From the NCBI RefSeq assembly GCF_014205015.1, contig NZ_JACHMO010000001.1, positions 1,550,001 to 1,614,000 of the forward strand: DNA of 64,000 nucleotides, in the 5' to 3' direction. The notes under the pieces were generated by a model. The model saw nothing but the letters and a program-made list of their open reading frames with translations. It ran no database searches and had not been told where the DNA came from. The DNA is from Saccharothrix ecbatanensis. GTDB lineage: Bacteria; Actinomycetota; Actinomycetes; Mycobacteriales; Pseudonocardiaceae. Positions within the stretch are counted from its first letter, which is position 1. Each line of letters opens with the position of its first letter. The position numbers and the translations under genes were made by a program. Shown here in pieces: positions 16,997 through 59,587 of the stretch.

Positions 16997-18070
16997 GTGC
17001 GGGTCCTGGTGGTCAACGCGGGCTCGTCCAGCCTGAAGCTGCGGCTGCTGGCGGCCGACGACGAAGTGGAGCGCACCGCCGACGTCGAACCCGACCCCGC
17101 ACGGCTCGGTGACGTCCTGGAGGACTGGCCCGCGCCGGACGCCATCGGCCACCGAGTGGTGCACGGCGGCACCCGGTTCACCGACCCGGTCGTGATCGAC
17201 GACCTCGTCCGCCGGGCGCTGGTGGACCTGACGTCGCTCGCGCCGCTGCACCAGCCGAAGTCGTTGGCCGGCCTGGACGCGGTGCACAAGCTGCTGCCGG
17301 ACGTCCCGGCGGTCGCGTGCTTCGACACCGCGTTCCACACCACCATCCCGGCCGCGGCTGCGACGTACGCGGTGCCCAAGGAGTGGCGGGAGCGTTACGC
17401 CATCCGCCGGTACGGGTTCCACGGTCTCTCCCACGCCTACTGCGCACGTCGAGTGGCCGAGCTGTGCGCGCCGAAGCGGCTCGTCACCTGCCACTTGGGC
17501 GCGGGCGCGTCCCTGGCCGCGATCGCCGACGGCCGGAGCGTCGACACCACCATGGGTTTCACGCCGCTGGAGGGCCTGGTCATGGCGACCAGGTCGGGCA
17601 CGGTCGACCCTGGTCTGGTGCTCTGGCTGGAGGAGCACGAGAACCTGTCGCCGCACGAGGTCGCGACCGCGTTGGAGGAACGGTCGGGCCTCACCGCGTT
17701 GGCCGGCACCGCTGACATGCGCGAGATCGACGCCCGTGCGGCGGAAGGCGACCGCGATGCCGTGCTGGCGCTGGACGTCTACACGCATCGGCTGGTCGCG
17801 GGCGTCGCCGCGATGGCTGCCGCGTTGGGCGGTCTGGACGTGCTCGCGTTCACCGGCGGCGTCGGCGAGAAGTCGGTCACGGTGCGCCGCCGTGCCGCCG
17901 AACGCCTGGGCTTCCTCGGAGTCGCCGTCGACAACGACCGCAACGAGCAGGTCGACGGCGACACCGACATCAGCGGCCCGCACGCCACCACCCGGACCCT
18001 CGTCGTCACCGCCCGGGAAGACCTGGAGATCGCGCACGGCACGCGCGCCGCGTTGCGCGACGGCGACTGA
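16997..18070 (+). CDS. ackA: Acetate kinase
   Basis: Converts acetyl phosphate and ADP to acetate and ATP, using the product of the upstream phosphoketolase. It is 357 residues, somewhat shorter than the usual 400. Motifs present: VNAGSSSLKLRLL, GHRVVHGG, ACFDTAFHTTIP (catalytic Asp), RRYGFHGLSHAY, CHLGAGASLAAI, DTTMGFTPLEGLVMATRSGTVDP and FTGGVGEKS. GTG start at 16997, one base after the xfp stop, so translation is coupled. There is no phosphotransacetylase nearby. Confidence 0.95.
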   Translation: MRVLVVNAGSSSLKLRLLAADDEVERTADVEPDPARLGDVLEDWPAPDAIGHRVVHGGTRFTDPVVIDDLVRRALVDLTSLAPLHQPKSLAGLDAVHKLLPDVPAVACFDTAFHTTIPAAAATYAVPKEWRERYAIRRYGFHGLSHAYCARRVAELCAPKRLVTCHLGAGASLAAIADGRSVDTTMGFTPLEGLVMATRSGTVDPGLVLWLEEHENLSPHEVATALEERSGLTALAGTADMREIDARAAEGDRDAVLALDVYTHRLVAGVAAMAAALGGLDVLAFTGGVGEKSVTVRRRAAERLGFLGVAVDNDRNEQVDGDTDISGPHATTRTLVVTAREDLEIAHGTRAALRDGD

Positions 18071-18181
18071 TCTTCCGCAACAGTGCGGCTTCCGTGCGCC
18101 GCATGTGGCCGTTGGGCGGATTGACACACCCGGTGAAACCGGCGTTACTTGGCTCGTCGCGTAATGCGAAGGGGTGGGGGA

Positions 18182-19720
18182 ATGTCGGAGCCCGGGGGAC
18201 ACTGGAGTCCCCGTTTTCGTGTTGTCCTGATCGGGGTAATCCTGCTGGTCGGCATCGCCGTGACCATGGTGTCCACCCTCTTGTTCACGGAGTTGGAGAA
18301 GTCGTGGACGCCCGGCTCCGTGGCGCGGGCCGTGCTCGGTGCGATGTTGGCGCTGTTCTCCGGCGTCTACGTGAACCTCATGCTGGCGGTGATCGTCAGG
18401 GTGTGGCGCCGGCCCGAGCCGACGGAACTCCGGCTGGGTGACGCGGTCAGCAATCTCGGGACAGCGCTGCGGCAACCGCTGAGGCGGGTCGGGATCGTGC
18501 TGACCGTCGTCGCCATCGTCGTGGTGGGCCTGGTCCTGCGCCCGCCGGACGCCGGCCCGGAGCCGGGCGGACTGGTCATCATGACGGCGTTCAACGAGAG
18601 CGCCAACGACCCGCGGACGATCCTCTTCGAGCAGTGGAACCAGGCGAACCCGGACAACCAGCTCGAAGTCGTCCCCGTGTCCGGCGAGCCGGACCAGCAG
18701 AACGAGCGGATGGTCAACGACGCGAAGCCGGGTGGCGCCAACCGCGCCGACGTCTACCTGCTGGACGTCGTGTGGACGGCGCAATTCGCGGAACTCGAGT
18801 ACATCCGGGAACTCGACCGGTCGGCCGTGGCGGGTGATTTCGTGCCCCGGATCCTCGACACCTGCACCTATGAAGAGAAGTTGTGGGCCGTGCCGTTCAA
18901 CACCGACGTCGGAATGCTGTTCTACCGCGACGACTTGACCGCCGCGCCGAAGAACTGGGACGACTACTTCGGCCGTGCCGCGGCGGACGCGGCCAGGGCA
19001 GCCGGTGTGGAGGCGGCGAACGCGGCGTCGCTGGACGATGAGGAGATCCTCACCGTCGTCGCGTTGGAGGCCATGTGGGCGGCCGGCGGCGAGGCGTTCG
19101 GCCGTGACGGCGAAGTCGCGCGGAACGCGGACGAGAGCGCCGTCGAACTCGGGCCGGCCGACCTGACCGGCATCGAGCGCCTGGTCGCGGCGTCCCGCGA
19201 CCCCGACATCGTGCTGGACGAGGCTCGGACGACCACGGACAACGCGGCGGTCGGCGCGTTCGCCGACGGGCGGTCGTTGTACATGCGCAACTGGCCGGTC
19301 GCGTACGACAAACTGCTCGACCGCGTCGAGTTCGGGGTCGTCGCACCGCCCACGGCGAGCGTCCTCGGCGGGCAGAACCTGGCCATCAGCGCGTCCACGG
19401 ACAAACCGCGCGCCGCGCGGGCGTTGATCGAGTTCCTGACCAGCGCGTCCAGCCAGCTGATCCTGTCCGAGCTGGGCGGGTTCGCGCCGACCAGGCAGTC
19501 CGCGTACGACAACAGCAAGCGTGCCGACATCCAGCAGATCCGCACCGCTCTGAACGACGCTCGCCTTCGCCCGCGCACGCCGAACTACGTGGAGTTCAGC
19601 CGGGTGTTCCGCGAGGGCATCGCATACGCGCTCACCGACCCGAAGGGTCAGTTGCCGCCGGACCTCTTGGAGCGGCTGGCGGAGATCCTGGACAAGCCGG
19701 TCACGCAACCCACCCGCTGA
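18182..19720 (+). CDS. Membrane-anchored extracellular solute-binding protein (family 1)
   Basis: 512 residues. The N-terminal 120 residues contain three hydrophobic helices (about residues 14-36, 51-73 and 104-123) instead of the usual lipoprotein signal; no lipobox is seen. With the N-terminus inside, three helices place the rest outside the cell. The remainder is a sugar-type ABC solute-binding domain: VIMTAFNESANDPRTILFEQWNQANPDNQLEVV, the DVYLLDVVWTAQFAELEYIRELD segment, LWAVPFNTDVGMLFYRDDL, ALEAMWAAGGEAF, and RAARALIEFLTSASSQ near the end. No permease or ATPase genes are adjacent, so it is an orphan. It may serve as a sensor-like or shared binding protein; that is inference. ATG at 18182 follows an AAGGGG-type ribosome binding site. 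Confidence 0.8.
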   Translation: MSEPGGHWSPRFRVVLIGVILLVGIAVTMVSTLLFTELEKSWTPGSVARAVLGAMLALFSGVYVNLMLAVIVRVWRRPEPTELRLGDAVSNLGTALRQPLRRVGIVLTVVAIVVVGLVLRPPDAGPEPGGLVIMTAFNESANDPRTILFEQWNQANPDNQLEVVPVSGEPDQQNERMVNDAKPGGANRADVYLLDVVWTAQFAELEYIRELDRSAVAGDFVPRILDTCTYEEKLWAVPFNTDVGMLFYRDDLTAAPKNWDDYFGRAAADAARAAGVEAANAASLDDEEILTVVALEAMWAAGGEAFGRDGEVARNADESAVELGPADLTGIERLVAASRDPDIVLDEARTTTDNAAVGAFADGRSLYMRNWPVAYDKLLDRVEFGVVAPPTASVLGGQNLAISASTDKPRAARALIEFLTSASSQLILSELGGFAPTRQSAYDNSKRADIQQIRTALNDARLRPRTPNYVEFSRVFREGIAYALTDPKGQLPPDLLERLAEILDKPVTQPTR

Positions 19721-49045: not shown

Positions 49046-49188
49046 GGAGAGTAGCGCCAAGCCCCGGCAAGCGCCGCCTGTCACCGAAAGGTCCCGGCGT
49101 GGAATGTCGGTGTGGCGTTCAAGGCCCTCGCGCAGCTCGCTGACCAGCACGAATGCGCGTTCGCCGAGGACGTGTTTCGATCAACGGC

Positions 49189-49325
49189 ATGGCGCTTGAC
49201 CTCGTCCATCCTCCGAAGGCCCGACCGGGAGACCGGATCGCGGTCCTCTCGCCGTCGTCGGCGGCGAGGACCAGATCACGGTGATCCCGCACCTCGACGC
49301 CGACCTCGTCCAGTCGGACCGGACG
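49189..49325 (+). pseudogene. Fragment of an LD-carboxypeptidase (peptidase S66) gene
   Basis: From the ATG at 49189 one reads MALDLVHPPKARPGDRIAVL followed by SPSS, the N-terminus of S66 LD-carboxypeptidases. In a second frame from 49263, GEDQITVIPHLDADLVQSD follows, which is the region around residue 75 of that family. The roughly 50 residues between and the whole remainder are missing, so only two short pieces survive. It ends where the NDK-like gene begins. Confidence 0.6.
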
Positions 49326-49336
49326 GAAACAGGCCG

Positions 49337-50293
49337 ATGACCCCCGGCCCGGTGATCGACCTGGACCCCGGTGACCAGGAGTGGGTCGGGCTCACCCGGT
49401 CGGCCCGCAAGCGCGAGCTCTTCACCGAGGACCTGTACTTCAGGGAGGCCTGGGCGGACGCCGTGAGCGTCTTCGGGGACCGCACCACCGCCGTCATGGG
49501 CGAGGTGGCGCTGTTGAACTTCAAGTGCGACGGGCTGATCGGCCGCCGGATAGGCGCCACGCTGGATTTCCTGTCCACCAACGGCTTCCAGGTCGTCGGC
49601 GTCTCACCCATGCGGCACAACCGGCACTCCATGCGGGAGCTGTGGCGCTACAACTGGCACGTCTACACGGTCGACCGGCTGGCGCTGACGACCGTGATGC
49701 ACGCCGCCACCGACACCATGCTGCTGATCCTGCGCGACACCCGCTACGACGGCGTGGTGCCCGGATCGGTGCGGCTGGCGGACATGAAGGGCTCGGCGAA
49801 CCCGGCCGGCCGTGACCCGGACAGCCTGCGTTCGGTGTTGCGGCCACCCAACCAGGTGATCAACTTCGTGCACGTCGCCGACGAGCCCGCCGACATCGTC
49901 CGCGAGGTCGGCATCTTCCTCGACCGGGCGCAACGGCGTGAGCTGTTCGCCCTGGTGCGCGACCGGTTCACCACGGGCGCGGACGAGGAGGCCGCGGCGC
50001 TGCGCGTGAAGCTGGAAGCCGAGTACCCCGAGAACGACTTCGACATCGCCAAGGCGCTGCTGCGCGTCGAACGGACCGGCTCGGTGAGCGCCGCGGACAT
50101 GGCCGAGCTCCGTGCCGCGGTCGACGGGGGAGAGCCGCTGGGCTGGGACCGGCTGCGGGCGATCTTCCCGCCGGACTCGCCGGTGGACCGGTGGGACTTC
50201 GTGATGATCGCGACCGACACGATGGTCCCCGAGCGCACGGGCGTGGTCGACCTGCTCCCGGCCGGCAGCCGCGCGGAGTGGGCCGGACCGTGA
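49337..50293 (+). CDS. Nucleoside-diphosphate-kinase-like protein
   Basis: 318 residues. Residues of about 45-205 resemble an NDK domain: GEVALLNFKCDGLIGRRIGATLDFLSTNGFQVVGVSPMRHN at the start and PNQVINFVHVADEPADIVREVGIFL at the end. The latter keeps the histidine of the NDK active site (N-x-x-H-x-x-D). The usual NDK has about 140 residues; here an N-terminal extension of 40 and a C-terminal helical region of about 110 residues are added (LKAEYP-like ENDFDIAKALLRVE). It may use the phosphohistidine for another transfer. ATG at 49337 is preceded by a weak AGG. Function uncertain. Confidence 0.55.
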   Translation: MTPGPVIDLDPGDQEWVGLTRSARKRELFTEDLYFREAWADAVSVFGDRTTAVMGEVALLNFKCDGLIGRRIGATLDFLSTNGFQVVGVSPMRHNRHSMRELWRYNWHVYTVDRLALTTVMHAATDTMLLILRDTRYDGVVPGSVRLADMKGSANPAGRDPDSLRSVLRPPNQVINFVHVADEPADIVREVGIFLDRAQRRELFALVRDRFTTGADEEAAALRVKLEAEYPENDFDIAKALLRVERTGSVSAADMAELRAAVDGGEPLGWDRLRAIFPPDSPVDRWDFVMIATDTMVPERTGVVDLLPAGSRAEWAGP

Positions 50294-51781
<1,488 letters not shown>

Positions 51782-51911: not shown

Positions 51912-52709
51912 TCAGTCGCCGAACTCGATCGAGCCGTCCCGCCGCCCGCTCTCCGCGAGGTGCCGGAAGGCGAAGCCCGCGACCACCAGCCAACCGGTCG
52001 CCACGCACAGCTCCAGCGCCGCACCGCCCGCCACCACGCCCGCCGGCGCCCCTGCCAGCAGGTCGCGCACCGCACCCAACCCGTGGGTCAGCGGCAGCAC
52101 CTCGGCCACCTGCGGGAACGGCGCCGGCCAGAACGTCGTCGGCACCTGGACCCCGCACACGAGCATCAGCGTCAGCGAGCCGATCCCGCTCACCAGGTTG
52201 CGCACCTCCACCTTGCGCAGCACGAACGCCGCCAGCACCAGCCCGAAGCAGTACGTCGACCACGACACCAACGCGATCAGCGGCAACGCGAGCAGCGCCC
52301 GTGGCATCGGCAACGGCAGGCCGAACAGCGGCGACAGCACGAACAGCGCGATCGAAGCGCACAACGTCCCGTCCAGCAGCCACTGCGCGCTGCGCCCGAC
52401 GAACAGCGGAAACGCGCTGGTCGGCGCGGCCACCAGCAGCGGCAGCGTGCCCGCCTGCCGTTCCCACGCCGTCGACGCGCACACGAACAGCGACACCAGC
52501 GCGGCGATGAACACCGCGTTCCCGACGAGCAGGTACTGGGTGCGCTCGGCCGACCCGAGCAGCCGCCCGATCACGGCGTAGAACGCCACCTGCGTCAAGA
52601 TCCGGGACAGCCACGCGAACGACCAGGTGCGCCACGTGTAGATCACCTTCAGGTCGGCCCGCGCGCTGACGAACGCGGCGGCCAGCACCCGCACGTTGTC
52701 GCGGATCAC
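51912..52709 (-). CDS. ABC-2 type permease (second subunit) of the peptide-locus exporter
   Basis: 265 residues with about six membrane helices (ILTQVAFYAVIGRLL, YLLVGNAVFIAALVSLFVCAS, WLLDGTLCASIALFVLSPLFGLP, ALLALPLIALVSWSTYCFGLVLAAFVL, IGSLTLMLVCGVQV, ALELCVATGWLVVAGFAF). ABC-2 family, as in drug, O-antigen or bacteriocin exporters. The GTG overlaps the stop of the first permease by four bases, so both are made in equal amounts. Last gene of the operon that begins with the 20-residue peptide; the likely cargo is that peptide. Confidence 0.85.
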   Translation of the reverse strand: MIRDNVRVLAAAFVSARADLKVIYTWRTWSFAWLSRILTQVAFYAVIGRLLGSAERTQYLLVGNAVFIAALVSLFVCASTAWERQAGTLPLLVAAPTSAFPLFVGRSAQWLLDGTLCASIALFVLSPLFGLPLPMPRALLALPLIALVSWSTYCFGLVLAAFVLRKVEVRNLVSGIGSLTLMLVCGVQVPTTFWPAPFPQVAEVLPLTHGLGAVRDLLAGAPAGVVAGGAALELCVATGWLVVAGFAFRHLAESGRRDGSIEFGD

Positions 52710-53473
52710 GCGAAGCTCACCGCCCCCGTCGTGCGGACGCGTTGCAGGATGCGCCGCAGCACCCACACGCCCACCACCATCGCGGCCAGCCCCAGCCCGG
52801 CCACCACGGCCAGGCGCGCCGGCGCGTTCGGCACGGCGCCCGGACGCAGGCAGTCGCGGATCAGGTCGGTCGACCACGACAAGAAGATGACTTTGGTGAT
52901 CGGTTGCAGCCACTCCGGCAGCAGCGGCGCGGGCACGACGGCACCGCTGAGCAGGTAGAACGGGTACGACAAGGCGTTCTGGAACGTCCGGGCCGACCGG
53001 GACAGCACGAAGACGCCCGCCAGCGCCGACGCGGTCATCGCCATCGCCACGGCGGTCAGCGCCAGCGTCGCCGCGAACAGTCCCACGTGGTGGACGTCCA
53101 CCACCACGCCGAACGTGAGGCGAGCCACCACGACGCTCTCCACCAGGGAAAGCAGGCTGATCACCGTGATGGTCGTGGTCCGGCCGAGCACCACCAGCGA
53201 CAGCGGCGCGGGCGTGCTGATCAACGCTTCCAGCGTGCCCTGGCCGCGGTCCGCGTCGATGATGTCGCCGGACTCGTTGATCGCCATCTGCCACACCGCG
53301 ATCACCGTCGCGCCCACCACCGCGTACGGGGCCAGGTCCGCCCTCCCGGAGTGCACCATGATCGCGACCAGGGCGAGGGTGAACAGCGGTGTGGCGACGA
53401 GCGCGCTCAGGTTCGCGATCCGGCGCATCTGAAGCCCCTGGAACCACACCGCGGCGCCGAAGACCGTGATCAC
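52706..53473 (-). CDS. ABC-2 type permease (first subunit) of the peptide-locus exporter
   Basis: 255 residues, about six helices (LSALVATPLFTLALVAIMV, YAVVGATVIAVWQMAI, VISLLSLVESVVVARLTFGVVV, VGLFAATLALTAVAMAMTASALAGVFVL, ALSYPFYLLSGAVVPAPLLP, LAVVAGLGLAAMVVGVWVLRRIL). Typical ABC-2 features include DADRGQGTLEALISTPAPLS in the first cytoplasmic loop. GTG overlaps the ATPase stop by four bases. Pairs with the downstream permease as a heterodimer. Confidence 0.85.
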   Translation of the reverse strand: MITVFGAAVWFQGLQMRRIANLSALVATPLFTLALVAIMVHSGRADLAPYAVVGATVIAVWQMAINESGDIIDADRGQGTLEALISTPAPLSLVVLGRTTTITVISLLSLVESVVVARLTFGVVVDVHHVGLFAATLALTAVAMAMTASALAGVFVLSRSARTFQNALSYPFYLLSGAVVPAPLLPEWLQPITKVIFLSWSTDLIRDCLRPGAVPNAPARLAVVAGLGLAAMVVGVWVLRRILQRVRTTGAVSFA

Positions 53474-54429
53474 CGCACCACGCTGCCCCGGTCGCCGATG
53501 ACGTGCAGGTAGACGTCCGCCAGCGACGGCTTGCCGGTGGAGATCCGCGCGACGCCCGCCTTGACCAGCAGCTCGACCACCCGTGCCGCCGCACCCGCCG
53601 CGTCGGTCTCCACCACCAGCGAACCCTCGGCCCGGGTGGCGTCCCGCACGCCCGGCACCGCACGCACGGCGACGGCCACGTCTTCGGGAACGTCCTCGGC
53701 GACCACCCGTTCGTAGGTGCTCAGCCAGTCGCCGATCGTCCTCGGGTTCTCGGTGGCCACGAGCCTGCCCTCGTCGATCAGCGACACCCGGTCGCAGACC
53801 GCCTCGGCCTCCGCCATGTCGTGCGTGGTGATCAGAATCGTCCGGCCCTCCGCGCGCAGTTCGCCGACCAGGGCGCGGAAGTCCCTGGCCGCCACCGGGT
53901 CCATGCCGATGGTGGGCTCGTCCAGCACGAGCAGCTTGGGGTCGCCGATCAGCCCGCGGGCCAGGTGCAGGCGCTGCTTCATGCCGCGCGAGAACGTCTC
54001 GACGCGCTCGTCCGCCCGGTCGGCCAGGCCCACCCGCTCCAGCAGGGCGGCGGACCGCTGCCTGCCGACGGATCGCGGCTGCCGGTACAGCGCCGACCAG
54101 TAACGCAGGTTCTGCCGCGCGGTGAGCCTGCCGTACAGGCCGCGCTCGCCGCCGAACACGATGCCGAGGAGACGTCGCACCGCGGCGGTGTCGGAGACCA
54201 CGTCGTGGCCGAAGATCTCCGCCCGGCCGCCGGTCGGCAGCAGCACGGTGGACAGGATCTTGCACAGGGTGGTCTTGCCCGCGCCGTTCGGTCCCAGGAG
54301 GCCGTGCACCTCGCCTACGGCGACGGACAGGTCGATCCCGTCCAGGGCGACGCGCGGCTCCTGCCGTTTGCGCTCGTAGGCGCGCCGCAGCCCTTCGACG
54401 ACGACGGCCGAGCCGGTCGGTTCGCTCAT
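53470..54429 (-). CDS. ABC transporter ATP-binding protein of the peptide locus
   Basis: 319 residues. Walker A GPNGAGKTT, Q-loop, signature FSRGMKQRLHLARGL (SRGMK in place of LSGGQ, common in ABC-2 ATPases), Walker B LLVLDEPTIGMDP and H-loop TTHDMAEAEAV. A C-terminal DrrA-like extension of about 90 residues follows. It powers the two permeases encoded behind it. Its ATG overlaps the nucleotidyltransferase stop (TGATG). Confidence 0.9.
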   Translation of the reverse strand: MSEPTGSAVVVEGLRRAYERKRQEPRVALDGIDLSVAVGEVHGLLGPNGAGKTTLCKILSTVLLPTGGRAEIFGHDVVSDTAAVRRLLGIVFGGERGLYGRLTARQNLRYWSALYRQPRSVGRQRSAALLERVGLADRADERVETFSRGMKQRLHLARGLIGDPKLLVLDEPTIGMDPVAARDFRALVGELRAEGRTILITTHDMAEAEAVCDRVSLIDEGRLVATENPRTIGDWLSTYERVVAEDVPEDVAVAVRAVPGVRDATRAEGSLVVETDAAGAAARVVELLVKAGVARISTGKPSLADVYLHVIGDRGSVVR

Positions 54430-55517
54430 CAGGCCCCACCAGCGCGGTCGGCGTCGACACGGTCCAGTTCGGCGAGTGCCCGGTCGTACTGCTCCTGGGT
54501 CACCTCGGGGTGGTCCACCATCAGGTAGTCGCCGACCGGGGTCTCCATCACGACACCGCCGTCGTACCGCAGCACGCGGGACCGCGTCATGTCGTCGCGC
54601 CGCTCCTCTCGCAGCAGCAGGCCGCCGACCTCCCGGCCCGCCGCCAGCGCCGCCGCGATCGGGTCGTCCGGCGGTTCCGGCGATGACCAGGCGAGCCGCC
54701 GCTCCCGTTCCCGCGCGGCCGAGTCACGCAACGGCGGCAGCGCGTCGGCGAGCCCGCCGAGGTCGGTCTCGGGCGCCGCGAGTTCCAGCAGTTCCAGCAG
54801 TTCCGGCGCGAGGTTCCACTCGACGGCCGCGGCGGCGACGTCCGCGCCCGACCGGACCAGCGGGGCGAGCACGGCCACGTCGACCAGGTCCTTGGCGGTG
54901 AAGGCGCGCTGGAACCGCTCCTCTGCCACCGCGAGCAGATCGGACGTGACCGGGTCGGCCGGCAGCGGCACCCGGACCGGCACCGACCCCTGGTCGCCGG
55001 GGAACGCCGCGGTGGACAGCTCCACCCGGTGCTCCTTGTCCAGGAACGGGTCCGCGCCCGGCCACGCCAGGTCGATGATCAGGTGCTGCTCGGGGTGGCC
55101 GTACACCGACACCCCGACCGCCTCGACCGGGCACAGCTCAAGCACCGCCCGCACCGCGCGCCACAGCGCCTCCTCGTCGGCCACCACCAGGTCGAGGTCG
55201 CCGACCGCGCGCACCAGCCCGTCCGGGTAGTGCCGGGCGATCGACGGTCCTTTGAGGACGTTGACCGGCACGCGCGCGGAAAGCCCGGCGAGGACCCCGG
55301 CGTAGAGCGTCCGGCGCGTCGTGGTGCGGTTCAGCTCGTCCGACGAGCCGCTGCCCAGCGCCATGCCGTCGCGTGCGAACGCAGACAGCACCAAGGCGGG
55401 GAAGGACCAGCCGTGGTCGCGAGCGGTGCGCACCAGCACGTCGGGTGTGTCGTCCTCGTCCACGTCCAGCAGCCGGTGGAGCAGGGCGAGGTCGACACCG
55501 GTGGCGGTGGTGGTCAT
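54429..55517 (-). CDS. Nucleotidyltransferase family protein (PF14907-like) of the peptide locus
   Basis: 362 residues. The middle region VNVLKGPSIARHYPDGLVRAVGDLDLVVADEEALW has the LKG ... R ... GDLDL pattern of the uncharacterised nucleotidyltransferase family, with the DxD acting as metal ligand. Members turn up in lasso-peptide and other RiPP clusters, where transfer of a nucleotide or of a sugar has been suggested but is rarely proven. It lies seven bases after the second M16 gene, whose last codons contain its GGAGGA ribosome binding site. Role here: possibly a peptide modification or self-protection step. Confidence 0.7.
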   Translation of the reverse strand: MTTTATGVDLALLHRLLDVDEDDTPDVLVRTARDHGWSFPALVLSAFARDGMALGSGSSDELNRTTTRRTLYAGVLAGLSARVPVNVLKGPSIARHYPDGLVRAVGDLDLVVADEEALWRAVRAVLELCPVEAVGVSVYGHPEQHLIIDLAWPGADPFLDKEHRVELSTAAFPGDQGSVPVRVPLPADPVTSDLLAVAEERFQRAFTAKDLVDVAVLAPLVRSGADVAAAAVEWNLAPELLELLELAAPETDLGGLADALPPLRDSAARERERRLAWSSPEPPDDPIAAALAAGREVGGLLLREERRDDMTRSRVLRYDGGVVMETPVGDYLMVDHPEVTQEQYDRALAELDRVDADRAGGA

Positions 55518-55524
55518 GGGGTGG

Positions 55525-56706
55525 TCATCCTCCGGCTCGTACCACGGTCGTCAGGTTGGCCAGCACGTCGGCGGCGGCCTCGGCGATCGCGCCGGCCGGC
55601 ACCGCGGTCAGTGCCGCCAGGTCCGCGTCCGCGGACCACGGGACGCCGCCCGCACGGGACCGGACACCCGCCAACTTCGCAAGTTCCAACGGGTTCTCGG
55701 TCTGGAGCAGCAGTTGCACTTCCGCCCGGCGCTTGGCCGTGCGCAGGTCCTCGTCCTCGGGTCCGCGGTCGGCGAGTTCGCCGAGCAGGCCGCGCACGAT
55801 CCGCTCGACGCGGTCGCCGTTGCCGTCGTCGACACCCACGAGCATCCGCCACGCGCCGGCCTCGGTGTAGCCGCGGTCCCACGTGTCGAACGCGTAGCCG
55901 AGCGCGTGCTCGTCACGCAGCCGCCGGTACAGCAGGGACGCGGGGCTGGAGTCCAGCAGCAGCGCCAGCAGGTCGTACGCCGGGCGTTCCGGGTCGCCCA
56001 TCGCGGGGGAGCGGACGCCGAAGCACAGCCAGAAGTAGCCCTGCGGCCAGGTGATCGGGTCCCGCCGCACGGGTGTGAGCGGCGTGCGGTCGTCGGGCAG
56101 GCGGTCGTCGGCGAGGTTCGCGATCACGTCGCCGGGCAGGTCCGGGATCTCGGGTCCGACCACGGACAGGCTCACCGGGCGGGTCAGCACCGCGCCGGTG
56201 TGGTGCGCGCGCACGTGCTCGGGGCGGATCGCGCGGATGCCCTCCGGTGTTCCGCCGACCGGCGCGCCGAGCGGGTGACCGGGGAACAGGGCTTCGAGGA
56301 TGGCGTCCTGCGCCTGCTCGCTCGGATCGGCCGCGCCACCGGCCAACTCCTGGAGCACGACGTCCTTCTCCCGCTCCACGGTCGCCTCGTCGGTGTCGAG
56401 CGAGAACGCCGCCTCCAGCAGCAGGTCGAGCACTTCCGGCGCGTCGTCCGCGTGCACCTGGGCGTAGAACTGCTGTTCCTCCAGGCCGGTGTGCGCGTTG
56501 ACCGTGCCGCCCATCCGCTCGGTGCGCCGGCTGAACGACTCGCCGCCGCGCAGGGGGGCGGACATCACCAGGTGCTCGACCAGGTGGGTCAGGCCGCCGA
56601 GGCCGTCCGGGTCCGAACGCGACCCGCACGTGACGGTGAGGCAGAGACTGGTGGTCCGCAGACCTGGTTGGACCGCGGGCAACAGGGTCAAGCGGCGGTC
56701 AGCCAC
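55525..56706 (-). CDS. M16-family zinc metallopeptidase (second of the pair)
   Basis: 393 residues of the M16B type. Zinc motif HLVEH in GGLTHLVEHLVMSAPLRGGESF, and the distal glutamate in EKDVVLQELAG. Second, non-catalytic-like half: LLALLLDSSPASLLYRRLRDEHALGYAFDTWDRGYTEAGAWRMLVGV. M16 enzymes act as two-halved clamshells on short unstructured peptides. GTG at 56706 overlaps the GNAT stop. Similar pairs process subtilosin A (AlbE/AlbF) and PQQ (PqqF/PqqG). Here both members keep HxxEH. Confidence 0.85.
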   Translation of the reverse strand: MADRRLTLLPAVQPGLRTTSLCLTVTCGSRSDPDGLGGLTHLVEHLVMSAPLRGGESFSRRTERMGGTVNAHTGLEEQQFYAQVHADDAPEVLDLLLEAAFSLDTDEATVEREKDVVLQELAGGAADPSEQAQDAILEALFPGHPLGAPVGGTPEGIRAIRPEHVRAHHTGAVLTRPVSLSVVGPEIPDLPGDVIANLADDRLPDDRTPLTPVRRDPITWPQGYFWLCFGVRSPAMGDPERPAYDLLALLLDSSPASLLYRRLRDEHALGYAFDTWDRGYTEAGAWRMLVGVDDGNGDRVERIVRGLLGELADRGPEDEDLRTAKRRAEVQLLLQTENPLELAKLAGVRSRAGGVPWSADADLAALTAVPAGAIAEAAADVLANLTTVVRAGG

Positions 56707-57568
56707 CGGGAACCACCTCCGCCGGCCGTGCGAGCGAGGACAACGGGAGTGACCAGTACGTGGTGTCCGGCCGCCAGCCCTTGGCCAGCAGCGCGTCGAA
56801 GACCTTGTCCGCGGTGGCGTCACCACCGGACACGTAGCCGCGCAGCGGGAGCCCCACCCGTCGGGCGTGCTCCACCGCAGCCGACGTGAGCAGCGGTCCC
56901 ACGGGGGTGCCGTGCGCGCGGGGCAGCACGAACTGGTCGAACAGCTCCAGGCGGTCCTGGCCGGTCAGGTCGTCCTGGTCGGGCAGCACGGTGGCGTGGC
57001 CCGCGAAGCCGTCGCCGTCGTGCGCGACGAACACCGCACCCACTTCGAGCGCCTCGACGAACAGCTCGGCCGCATAGTCGTCCACTGTGGACTGGTCTGT
57101 GGTGGACCCGGACCGGCGGTAGCCGTCGACCAGCGCGGCGGCGAACAGCGGCACGACGTCGTCGGCGTCGTCCGCGGTCGCCCTCCGCACCTGCGTGCCC
57201 GGTGCCGGACGCGCGGTCACGAGCCGATCGGTGGCGAGCACGTAACGCATGTAGGCCGCACCGCCGGGTGTTGTGGGCGGCTCGCTGCCGGCGAGGAGCA
57301 CCAGCACCAGTCGGTCGATCTCCGGGTGGCGTGCCGCCGCGGCCGTGGCCAGCTCCGCCACCAGGTCGGATCCGGTGTGGACGGACGGCGCGAGGAACGT
57401 GACCAGGGCGCGGGCGTCGCCGCTGACCTCGTCCACTTCGGGGGTGATCACGACGAGGTGGTCCGCCACCCGGGCGAGCGCGTCGGACCCGGCCAGCAGC
57501 TCGGCGACGTCGGCCGCGACGCCCAGCGCGCGGAGCTCGGCCGCGTCGGCGTCAGGACGCGACGACAT
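56699..57568 (-). CDS. GNAT-family acyltransferase of the peptide locus
   Basis: 289 residues. The C-terminal 155 residues are a GNAT domain: VRRATADDADDVVPLFAAALVDGYR, VGAVFVAHDGDGFAGHATV (beta strand 4), DQFVLPRAHGTPVGPLLTSAAVEHARRVGLPLRGYV (acyl-CoA binding region) and ALLAKGWRPDTTYWSLPL. The N-terminal half has no recognised domain and may bind the peptide. A transferase between two peptidase genes in an operon led by a Lys-rich peptide suggests N-acylation of lysines or of the N-terminus, as GNAT maturases do in selidamide biosynthesis; this is inference. ATG at 57568 overlaps the first M16 gene by 17 bases. Confidence 0.7.
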   Translation of the reverse strand: MSSRPDADAAELRALGVAADVAELLAGSDALARVADHLVVITPEVDEVSGDARALVTFLAPSVHTGSDLVAELATAAAARHPEIDRLVLVLLAGSEPPTTPGGAAYMRYVLATDRLVTARPAPGTQVRRATADDADDVVPLFAAALVDGYRRSGSTTDQSTVDDYAAELFVEALEVGAVFVAHDGDGFAGHATVLPDQDDLTGQDRLELFDQFVLPRAHGTPVGPLLTSAAVEHARRVGLPLRGYVSGGDATADKVFDALLAKGWRPDTTYWSLPLSSLARPAEVVPGG

Positions 57569-58766
57569 GCGTGTAACCCTCCAACACTTGTGCGGCGAAG
57601 GCGCGGACATCGCCGTGGCTCACTCCGGCGAGCAGCCGCCGGACCGCGTCGACCGGGGGTTCGTCCGATCCGGTCCGGGGCAGCCACGCGCAGTCCAGGT
57701 GGGCCAGCGCGACCGGGTCCTCGTTGTCCAGCAGCACGGAGCCGACCGCCTGCCGTTTCGCGGCGTCGAGGTGCTCGCCCGCCAACCGGCCGGACGCCAC
57801 GGCTTCGAGGCAGTCGTGGACCGTCCTCTCCACCAGCGGGACGTCTTCCGGCGGCGCGCCCACGACGACCGACCACGAGCCGACGTCGTGGTAGGCGGTG
57901 TGGAAGGACTGGAGTTGGTAGCCCATGCCGAGTTCGCCGCGCAGCCGTTCGTACAACACCGAACCGGGGGTGCCGCCGATCGCCGCCGCGAGCACTTCGG
58001 CCGCGGCCCACCGCGCGGTGGAGCGGCCCGCGCCGGGTCCACCCGCCACCAGGTACGCGTAGTCGGCGTCGGGGTCGGCGGCCGGTCGGGGCGGTTCGAG
58101 TGGTGTCCAGTCGGGTGGCGTCGGTGCGCCCGCCTGCTCAAGGCGGGCCAGTTCGCCGACGGCGAGCACGTCGAACGACTCGGCGAGCAGATCGGGCGGG
58201 CCCACCAAGCTGATGCCGACCGGGTACGACGCCAAGGTGTTCCGGTGCGCCCGGAGCACGTCCTCGGCGGACGGCTCGGGGAAGTCGTCGGGGTCGCCGC
58301 CGACGGGACGGGCGAACGGGCCGCCCGCGAACAGCTTGCCGTGGAACGATTCCCTGGCCACGTCGATCGGATCGGCCGCCGCGGCGAGGAGTTCCTGGAG
58401 GACGACCGAGCGCTCGGAGGCGCACAGCTCGTCGGTGATCCGCGGCTGTGCGACCGCGAGGTCCAGGTGGCGCACGCACTCGACCGCGGCCTCCGGGGGC
58501 ACGCGGGCCCAGAACACCACTGCCTCGTGCGACGTGGAGGCGTTGGACTGGCCGCCGACGGAGTCGACCCACTTGCTCAGCGAGGTGTCACCGTGGCAGG
58601 GCGCCTCGAGCACCAGGTGTTCCACCAAATGAGACAGTCCACTCAGGTCTGCGGCATCGTGTGCGGCACCCGCTCCGAGTGACACGCACACGGTCACGCT
58701 GCGAACTCCGAGCGACCCGTCGAGCGCCACGCGGACGCCGTTGTCCAGGGCCTTCACCACGAACAT
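57552..58766 (-). CDS. M16-family zinc metallopeptidase (first of the pair)
   Basis: 404 residues, M16B type. HLVEH in SGLSHLVEHLVLEAPCHGDTSLSKW, distal glutamate in SERSVVLQELLA, and the second half with LAAAIGGTPGSVLYERLRGELGMGYQLQSFHTAYHDVGSWSVVVGA. It starts at the ATG 58766 with GGGAG upstream, 74 bases after the peptide gene, behind a hairpin. Its proximity to the peptide suggests that it cuts the precursor or degrades leftovers. Confidence 0.85.
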   Translation of the reverse strand: MFVVKALDNGVRVALDGSLGVRSVTVCVSLGAGAAHDAADLSGLSHLVEHLVLEAPCHGDTSLSKWVDSVGGQSNASTSHEAVVFWARVPPEAAVECVRHLDLAVAQPRITDELCASERSVVLQELLAAAADPIDVARESFHGKLFAGGPFARPVGGDPDDFPEPSAEDVLRAHRNTLASYPVGISLVGPPDLLAESFDVLAVGELARLEQAGAPTPPDWTPLEPPRPAADPDADYAYLVAGGPGAGRSTARWAAAEVLAAAIGGTPGSVLYERLRGELGMGYQLQSFHTAYHDVGSWSVVVGAPPEDVPLVERTVHDCLEAVASGRLAGEHLDAAKRQAVGSVLLDNEDPVALAHLDCAWLPRTGSDEPPVDAVRRLLAGVSHGDVRAFAAQVLEGYTHVVAS

Positions 58767-58800
58767 CGCGCTCCCGGGGGTGTTGCGATCCGAAAGGAGT

Positions 58801-58832
58801 GCGGGGGCGGCGTCCGGGGACACCGCCCCCGC
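58801..58832 (-). terminator. Attenuator-like hairpin between precursor and processing genes
   Basis: Perfect 10-base-pair GC stem (58801-58810 with 58823-58832) and a 12-base loop, nine bases after the peptide stop. Such partial terminators let a precursor mRNA be made in excess of the enzymes downstream, a standard layout in RiPP operons. Confidence 0.65.
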
Positions 58833-58840
58833 TCCGGGCA

Positions 58841-58903
58841 CTACTTGCCCTTGCCCTTGATCACCAGCTTCGGGCGCAGCGTCGCCATGTGGTTGCGAGT
58901 CAT
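58841..58903 (-). CDS. Putative 20-residue precursor peptide
   Basis: Encodes MTRNHMATLRPKLVIKGKGK. AAGGGAGG stands six bases before the ATG, one of the best ribosome binding sites in the window. The peptide has no Cys, Ser or acidic residues; its C-terminal half (RPKLVIKGKGK) has four lysines. It is followed by a hairpin and then two M16 peptidases, a GNAT, a nucleotidyltransferase and an ABC exporter in one operon. This is the pattern of a RiPP precursor, comparable in size with PqqA. I know of no described peptide with this sequence. An internal ATG (sixth codon) is a less likely start. Confidence 0.7.
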   Translation of the reverse strand: MTRNHMATLRPKLVIKGKGK

Positions 58904-59350
58904 TGTGAACCTCCCTTCAACGTAGTTCCCGGTCGCGCGAGCGCCACCGGAAATGGGGCTGGGCCGGGAGATCACGAGTAGGCGAGAGGCCGAGTCCCGC
59001 AAGCTCCCCCTGTTGCGGTTGCCGCCACTGTGTTTCCAGCGGGTGCAACGTGTCGGCCAGACTACGACCGGTGACCGGGTGGTGACCGAGGACGACTCGG
59101 ATGTAACTTCGGACTCGCGCGTCACGACTGCCGGGCGGCTGCCCCCGCCGGCGGCGTCCGAAGCGCGGGATCTGCGCCGACGCGGGTCTTGCCGCTCTGG
59201 AACCGCCCGGCCGCCACCGCAACGGGCACTTCGGTCTCCAACTCCGTGAGACACCGCTTTGTGGCCGTAGCCGACGCTTCGCGGTAAGACTTCGCGGGGT
59301 CGCGGCGATATGCCCAGTGGACACCTAACTGGGGACGACGGTGAAAGATC
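58904..59350. promoter_or_regulatory. Long divergent regulatory region of the peptide locus
   Basis: 447 bases without a convincing gene, between the precursor gene (minus) and the small winged-helix-like gene (plus). Within it GGTGACCG occurs twice as a direct repeat with an 11-base period (59070-59077 and 59081-59088), one helical turn apart, a plausible operator. A weak TTGCGG-N16-TACTCG promoter-like pair reads toward the precursor at about 58980-59010. No coding frame inside looks real. Confidence 0.4.
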
Positions 59351-59587
59351 ATGTATGACGAGTTGAACCATCGGGCGCGGGCCCTGCTCCGCGCGATCGA
59401 GGCGGGACGGGCCGAAGTGACCCGGAGCAGCGAGCCGGACCTGAAGGTGGACGGCCTGCTCTGCTCCGACCAGGTCGCCGCCCGCGAACTGGCCCACGCC
59501 GGACTGCTCCGTCCGGCGCAACCGGGTCCCATCGGGCCGTGGGTGCGGGCGGAGTTGACGCCCGCCGGACGCGCGATCCTGGCCTGA
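59351..59587 (+). CDS. Small winged-helix-like protein
   Basis: 78 residues. The second half, GLLCSDQVAARELAHAGLLRPAQPGPIGPWVRAELTPAGRAILA, reads like the recognition helix and wing of a small winged-helix protein (LTPAGRAIL end). The first 25 residues form one charged helix. GGTGAAAG upstream of the ATG. Divergent from the putative RiPP precursor, so it might regulate that locus; unproven. Confidence 0.55.
   Translation: MYDELNHRARALLRAIEAGRAEVTRSSEPDLKVDGLLCSDQVAARELAHAGLLRPAQPGPIGPWVRAELTPAGRAILA

Follow-up and report, generated by a model that had tools for sequence, protein, structure and literature searches.

A short precursor-like peptide gene with M16 peptidase genes in Saccharothrix ecbatanensis, probably from an undescribed actinobacterial family of RiPP-like clusters

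The pyrroloquinoline quinone (PQQ; PqqA/PqqF) pathway needs the radical SAM enzyme PqqE, and subtilosin (SboA/AlbEF), in which an M16-like pair is accompanied by an exporter, depends on the radical SAM protein AlbA and on a core that contains Cys. In the microcin C system, MccB is a ThiF-type enzyme; in the pearlins, a small molecule is built on the end of a peptide and is then released by a peptidase. In the M16B pairs that act on lanthipeptides, one subunit carries HxxEH and the other R/Y, an active/inactive arrangement (PMC8960859). PMC9266682 presents PsmN of pseudomycoidin and AlbT of albusnodin, a nucleotidyltransferase-family protein and an acetyltransferase, as tailoring enzymes of ribosomally synthesized and post-translationally modified peptides (RiPPs). 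Herein, we describe a locus at positions 51,912 to 58,903 of a 64,000-nt stretch of the Saccharothrix ecbatanensis genome (contig NZ_JACHMO010000001.1, positions 1,550,001 to 1,614,000; hereafter the window), in which the gene of a 20-residue precursor-like peptide precedes an operon of seven genes. The window belongs to a 9.69-Mb single-contig genome, whose nearest named relatives are Saccharothrix.

The locus is probably a member of an undescribed actinobacterial family of short-precursor, RiPP-like peptide clusters. It has what the term RiPP in its broad sense calls for, a conserved gene-encoded precursor clustered with candidate modifying enzymes, and in the recurring set the peptide is joined by one or two M16 peptidases, by GNAT-like and PF14907 proteins and by an ABC exporter made up of a DrrA-like ATPase and two permeases; nucleotide-kinase-like genes are often present as well. 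Conservation of the peptide, co-occurrence of the genes and competence of the enzymes as judged by motif are observed at these loci, and from them we infer every chemical step.

The peptide gene (58903-58841, minus strand) has 63 bases and encodes the 20-aa MTRNHMATLRPKLVIKGKGK, which is free of Cys, ends in Lys, carries a net charge of +6 (K+R minus D+E) and matched no family in Pfam or NCBIfam. Its ribosome-binding site, GAAGGGAGG (58910..58918, minus strand), ends 6 nt before the ATG. As judged from the sequences compared, the peptide is conserved as a protein among actinobacterial loci. Small open reading frames (ORFs) stand 5' of the operon in L027 (MTRKHTATLRPKLVIKGKGK), L028 (MTRKHTANLRPKLVVKGKGK), L029 (MTRKHMAALRPKLVVKGKGK) and L034 (MTRKHVATLRPKLVVKAKGRGKK), and one precedes the GNAT gene in L033 (MVATLRPKVVVKKK); these loci represent five other genomes of the window's genus or family. 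Among the five long-form genes (window, L027, L028, L029 and L034), pairwise differences numbered 18, 14 and 61 at codon positions 1, 2 and 3, respectively, and the alignment of the same genes was invariant at 41 of 63 coding positions as against 17 of 177 upstream positions. A second form of the peptide was found in L035 (MRKHATSLRPRLDKVKTR), L036 (MNRNHVSLLRPRLDKVQTPKR), L038 (MLMQLRPRLDKIGASAKPKDTEKAK) and L039 (MNRNHVSLLRPRLEKVVTKKN) and, in genus g100, in L084, L086, L087, L089, L092, L093, L095, L096 and L097. Genus g100 is taken to be Streptomyces from its named homologues and because L058 matches a Streptomyces protein at 80%. The second-form loci (L035, L036, L038, L039 and the g100 set) were reached via GNAT or nucleotidyltransferase homology, the peptide not being used; L058 and L059 were reached by the pattern LRPR-L-[DE]-K, i.e. 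via the peptide.

Counting the window, [LM]RP[KR] peptide genes were present at 22 loci (21 tabulated plus L109, a Micromonosporaceae locus with MIRRHAGLLRPRLSTDRLGR), and the family ranges over the Saccharothrix family, genus g100 and Micromonosporaceae. The peptides have 14-25 residues, are basic (+3 to +9) and roughly follow the consensus M-x-R-[NK]-H-x3-L-R-P-[RK]-L. All 21 tabulated peptides have the R and P and the preceding L or M, positions that are part of the search motif; outside that motif, a His four residues before LRP is present in 19 of 21 and an Arg six residues before it in 16 of 19. The KGKGK-like ends by which a sequence-only reading of the window had proposed to find relatives turned out to be local, the wider signature being R-[NK]-H-x3-L-R-P-[RK]-L. 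Only diverged candidates were found in L108, L110/L111 (two in tandem) and L113 of Micromonosporaceae and in L098 of genus g100. The tandem Lys-rich peptide genes (L110, 7508-7659, minus strand; L111, 11887-12037, plus strand) encode MNRNMKFGRRPRVKKKTTTTRK, from a GTG, and MNRQAVHTRRPVVKKKKR, and lie beside M16, nucleotidyltransferase and NDK-like (nucleoside diphosphate kinase-like) genes; they may represent a divergent offshoot of this family.

The LRPK pattern occurred in 4 of 390 genomes of the window's family, all of them in the window's genus. LRPR-L-[DE]-K, searched across 394 genomes of the class, turned up in 9 of them at 10 places, three of which (L047, L051 and L055) are short ORFs of this kind; in the genus to which G733 belongs, an N-terminal peptide pattern was present in 2 genomes out of 295. 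The GNAT-like protein had matches in 18 of 149 genomes, counting that of the window. The nucleotidyltransferase was matched in 19 of the same 295 genomes of the G733 genus; 15 of the 17 such genomes other than G544 and G733 were examined (G944 and G1022 were left out), and second matches in G544, G854 and G973 were also left out. In Micromonosporaceae the same search gave 9 of 200 genomes, and six of the eight new ones were examined.

The association of the peptide with M16 genes was assessed at 23 related loci. At 19 of these, the first M16 gene had an ORF of 12-30 aa, led by a ribosome-binding site and containing [LM]RP[KR], within 300 nt upstream. The motif was a post hoc narrowing, made after the peptides had been seen, of an earlier search motif. 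For comparison, 280 further genes of these loci were taken from a simple ORF caller; 20 had any small ORF of this kind upstream and none had one with [LM]RP[KR]. After removal of the loci known via the peptide (window, L058 and L059), the count was 16 of 20. The four misses were L084 (peptide 6 kb off), L085 (none found), and L110 and L111 (diverged tandem peptides downstream); L033 and L038, in which the peptide precedes GNAT, and the M16-free L037, L098, L108, L112 and L113 were excluded from the comparison. By its own terms, the sequence-only reading would have been refuted had the small ORF not been conserved beside homologous M16 genes; this did not happen, and the small ORF accompanies genes for M16, the GNAT-like protein, the nucleotidyltransferase and the exporter, which are arranged in several different orders.

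Between the peptide gene and the M16A gene lies a hairpin with 15-nt arms (58801..58832, minus strand), a probable terminator or attenuator. The gene with its ribosome-binding site, the hairpin and the seven packed minus-strand genes had all been outlined before, and all are present; what changed is the start of M16A, which is most likely the ATG at 58766, since 404 aa is the length of two of its three closest homologues (457 aa in the other one), and the hairpin therefore sits in a 74-nt gap. Folding placed a hairpin within 70 nt 3' of the stop codon in 21 of 21 peptide genes, with z at or below -2.5 against 60 dinucleotide shuffles in 18 and weaker values in L028 (-1.9), L033 (-2.0) and L034 (-0.5). 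The stems are alike among close relatives, such as the Saccharothrix set, and differ between groups. An ORF that lies 5' of a hairpin and of enzyme genes could be a regulatory leader of the M16 operon, an attenuation or arrest peptide with no product. We regard this as highly improbable, and rejected a leader or attenuator as the sole function: the gene moves and the protein sequence stays. The peptide gene of L084 is free-standing, on the strand opposite to M16 and 6 kb away from it, and has a hairpin of its own, followed by TTTTT; those of L033 and L038 lie ahead of GNAT and not of M16. Gene order differs among the loci while gene content is largely constant, which likewise counts against a mere leader ORF. 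In a precursor-containing cluster, the hairpin would keep expression of the peptide gene above that of the enzymes, raising the peptide-to-enzyme ratio.

The two M16 peptidases, M16A (404 aa; 57552..58766, minus strand) and M16B (393 aa; 55525..56706, minus strand), each carry HLVEH, the third Glu and the R/Y pair. The idea of an active/inactive pair was rejected, since neither window copy has lost any of these residues. HxxEH with a Glu at the expected distance was found in 25 of 25 M16 proteins checked, and the strict R/Y pattern matched 16 of the 25, both window copies among them. The M16 pair, to which the sequence-only reading assigned the cutting, is not general: M16A together with M16B occurs only in the window, L027, L028 and L029 among the 23 loci. 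In a 29-row tree, M16A belongs to a clade of five rows (100/99), each from an LRPK-type cluster. M16B groups with proteins that are the only M16 of their clusters (fork 93/92, not starred). The best sequence match of the M16A profile in the PDB was 3hdi, 'Processing protease' (E 6e-54).

Downstream of M16B, 54429..55517 (minus strand) encodes a nucleotidyltransferase-like protein of PF14907 (NTP_transf_5) with a GDLDLVV motif. Its K89, G90, D107 and D109 are invariant in 49 of 49 aligned proteins (49 of the 53 returned), D107 and D109 lying within GDLDLVV. The predicted model is confident (pLDDT 95.5), and a sequence-profile search of the PDB with this protein gave no relative at E <= 1. The GNAT-like protein (289 aa; 56699..57568, minus strand; start checked) has an extra N-terminal domain and matched no NCBIfam family; its predicted model (pLDDT 89.6) shows, as judged by eye, a GNAT-like order of elements.

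After the peptide gene, the operon runs M16A, GNAT-like, M16B, PF14907 nucleotidyltransferase, ABC ATPase, permease and permease, with junctions, in order, of a 17-nt overlap, an 8-nt overlap, a 7-nt gap, and overlaps of 1, 4 and 4 nt. Pfam matched M16 twice, PF14907, ABC_tran and ABC2_membrane twice. The exporter comprises a DrrA-like ATPase (53470..54429; Pfam ABC_tran and NCBIfam) and two ABC-2 permeases (52706..53473 and 51912..52709; ABC2_membrane), all on the minus strand. Among the seven operon proteins, no radical SAM match was found in Pfam or NCBIfam, and neither were class-defining enzymes of lasso peptides, lanthipeptides or YcaO systems. The absence of a radical SAM enzyme, claimed earlier, thus holds for the window operon by Pfam and does not extend to the family, since radical-SAM-like genes lie near some related loci. 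An anti-phage defence role was also considered and rejected; a PADLOC search with five proteins had no match at E <= 0.01 (the GNAT query lacked its first residue).

The sequence-only reading proposed that the peptide is modified, cut by the M16 pair and exported. A precursor-like peptide does accompany genes of these kinds; acylation, cutting and their order remain matters of prediction. In the scheme that we favour, the nucleotidyltransferase and the GNAT-like protein would modify the peptide, and the M16 enzyme or enzymes, as closed-chamber peptidases suited to short peptides, would trim it, most likely at the M-x-R-N-H-x3 leader before LRP. Peptide-derived species would then be expected from full-length MTRNHMATLRPKLVIKGKGK or from LRPKLVIKGKGK, and the ABC transporter would export the peptide. 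L038 has neither an M16 gene nor an R-N-H-x3 leader, which fits an M16 cut before LRP; the hint is weak because L033 also lacks the leader and yet keeps one M16. A short conserved peptide with a peptidase and variable neighbouring genes would also suit a scaffold, with a small molecule assembled on one end of the peptide and freed by the peptidase, as in the pearlins. We hold this to be very unlikely, as neither a peptide aminoacyl-tRNA ligase nor TldD/E was matched by Pfam among the window operon proteins.

A probable accessory gene of the cluster encodes an NDK-like protein with NxxH (49112..50293, plus strand; alternative ATG at 49337), with a Pfam score of 24.2 bits (cut-off 27), or 27.4 with its neighbours. 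The genome has two PF00334 matches, the window protein and an ordinary enzyme at 8.92 Mb. NDK-like proteins were found in 10 of 30 cluster loci (window, L027, L058, L059, L085 weakly, L087, L092, L098, L110 and L111) and thymidylate-kinase-like proteins in 4 of 30 (L033, L039, L112 and L113). Neither kind was found in any of nine control loci (174,109 bases), which included three kin (L030-L032) and four with the nucleotidyltransferase and no cluster. Weaker kinase-like matches were seen in L029 (24.6 bits against a cut-off of 27) and beside L034, in its flank L060 (E 2e-6), and L095 and L096 have an adenylate-kinase-like gene, a query that covered the cluster loci and not the nine controls. 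Pfam NDK scores, where found, were 24 to 53 bits, with L027, L092, L098, L110 and L111 above the cut-off of 27; L058, L059 and L087 are tied to NDK only via their mutual similarity and that between L058 and L092. Alignment of seven NDK-like proteins with the ordinary enzyme put a His opposite its catalytic His in every one; the usual Asn is missing in L110.

Given the recurrent kinases, a nucleotide-derived group is plausible, though not proven. We put forward, tentatively and as a doubtful extension of the RiPP-like reading, that the PF14907 protein, fed by the NDK-like or thymidylate-kinase-like enzyme, nucleotidylates the 14-25-residue LRP[KR] peptide, with acylation, M16 trimming and export to follow, giving a new class of peptide-nucleotide or nucleotide-derived product. 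If true, actinobacteria would have arrived at the microcin C principle independently.

The same genes can be read as protection. The peptide may be a finished cationic antimicrobial, little modified, with the M16, GNAT and nucleotidyltransferase enzymes inactivating it in the producer as self-immunity and the ABC pump removing it. The basic charge of the peptides (+3 to +9) with the conserved LRP[KR] would fit, and microcin C (PMC6495379) has the peptidase MccF, the acetyltransferase domain at the C-terminus of MccE and the pump MccC for immunity and export. This is unlikely, since nucleotidyltransferase, M16 and exporter recur together, which fits biosynthesis better, and possible tailoring genes (radical-SAM-like, JmjC and nucleotide-kinase-like) lie near some loci. 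That the product is secreted as a peptide signal, to which a large SARP-type regulator responds, is quite unlikely: export and trimming genes would suit a pheromone, and SARP-like genes, named by eye, occur in 9 of 30 loci, less than 1 kb from the peptide gene in L058, L059 and L087, but none was called within the stretches examined in the other 21 loci, the window included. SARP genes are, moreover, common beside natural-product clusters.

Several observations weigh against a RiPP-like family as we propose it. L085 has M16 and no such peptide, L110 and L111 offer nothing but diverged Lys-rich peptides, which lie 3' of M16, L038 has the peptide without M16, and L108, L112, L113, L098 and L037 are without M16. 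The nucleotidyltransferase occurs in L088, L090, L091 and L094 with neither M16, a GNAT match nor an LRP-type peptide (L090 has a weak ABC match, and L094 weak ABC and permease matches), and this protein alone is therefore no marker of the family. The GNAT match of the window protein in Pfam is sub-threshold (17.8 vs 20.7 bits). No RiPP-recognition domain was matched in the operon proteins by Pfam or NCBIfam, such domains being easily missed. Finally, GNAT can persist alone, as the kin L030-L032 keep an open GNAT gene, beside an enolase gene, with no M16 match and no LRP peptide. L030 and L031 also hold what appears by eye to be a short nucleotidyltransferase remnant, and the joint absence of peptide and peptidases with GNAT persisting would be consistent with decay in a sister lineage.

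Other features surround these clusters. In the window, an enolase paralogue (50501..51781, plus strand), a second copy 59% identical to the enolase at 8.23 Mb, lies between the NDK-like gene and the operon, and its membership is uncertain. The window gave no Rfam match at gathering thresholds and contained no tRNA. About 160 nt 5' of the peptide start, a TAGTCT (59059-59064, minus strand) is kept in L027, and -10-like elements seen by eye lie at similar distances in L028 (TATTAC), L029 (TAATAG) and L034 (TAGCCT); these suggest a long 5' leader. A 78-aa ORF (59351-59587, plus strand), divergent from the peptide gene and also kept in L027, could be a small regulator, a guess made by eye. L095 and L096 (~13-19 kb) have, 3' of the exporter, a radical-SAM-like gene (CRRNCTHC, by eye) and a ~500-aa uncharacterised family, and L095 has a phosphoenolpyruvate (PEP)-synthase-like gene (by eye). 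In L029, at 17942-19501, ~3 kb past the exporter, PEP-mutase-like and phosphonopyruvate-decarboxylase-like genes (by eye) are possibly a separate phosphonate cluster, seen at this locus only. By eye, both L035 and L084 have genes resembling those of S-adenosylhomocysteinase and a class III aminotransferase, together with a partner gene, which suggests a methylation-linked variant. A JmjC-type protein beside the peptide-M16 unit in L093 (3540-4646, plus strand; PF08007) and L097 (8251-9222, minus strand; 56% identity) may mark a possible hydroxylase variant.

Searches of open-access papers, supplements excluded, with four peptide strings gave no paper, which is no proof of novelty. Combinations of M16, RiPP, GNAT, nucleotidyltransferase, PF14907 and NDK, likewise open-access only, gave none describing such clusters in its listing and the start of its abstract. 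If the RiPP-like reading is true, this is an unlisted family that would be missed by class-based mining because its precursors have only 14-25 residues and it has no class-defining enzyme. It would also hint at what some PF14907 'uncharacterised nucleotidyltransferases' and the M16 peptidases of actinobacteria do. The peptide motif is a direct search handle for further clusters, and whether a PF14907-type enzyme nucleotidylates a ribosomal peptide becomes a testable question.

With respect to known systems, PQQ shares a short precursor and an M16 peptidase with this locus, and differs in that the window operon is without a PqqE-type radical SAM enzyme and its M16 proteins score far below the PqqF cut-off (48.9 and 45.1 bits against 320). 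Subtilosin shares the M16-like pair with an exporter; it and the sactipeptides differ from the window locus, whose peptide lacks Cys and whose operon is without a radical SAM enzyme. The M16B proteases of paenithopeptin and bacinapeptin (PttP1/P2 and Bcn-gP1/gP2) are, like the window proteins, two M16B-size peptidases, and act on RiPP precursors, a role only predicted here; in PMC8960859 they are HxxEH and R/Y subunits encoded outside the lanthipeptide clusters, whereas both zinc sites are present, and in the operon, here. Pseudomycoidin and albusnodin are both lasso peptides; no lasso cyclase was matched in the window operon, and PsmN is likened to the window protein at the level of the nucleotidyltransferase family only. 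Microcin C (mccABCDE, mccF; PMC6495379) shares a tiny precursor, a nucleotide-transferring enzyme, an acetyltransferase, a peptidase, an exporter, and a terminator hairpin between mccA and mccB that resembles the hairpin after the peptide genes here. The precursor has 7 aa there as against 14-25 here, where only 2 of 21 peptides (L039 and L096) end in Asn, and no MccB-type (ThiF-like) adenylating enzyme was matched by Pfam among the seven operon proteins. An M16-type peptidase and a PF14907 candidate are found here instead, a likeness for which no homology is claimed.

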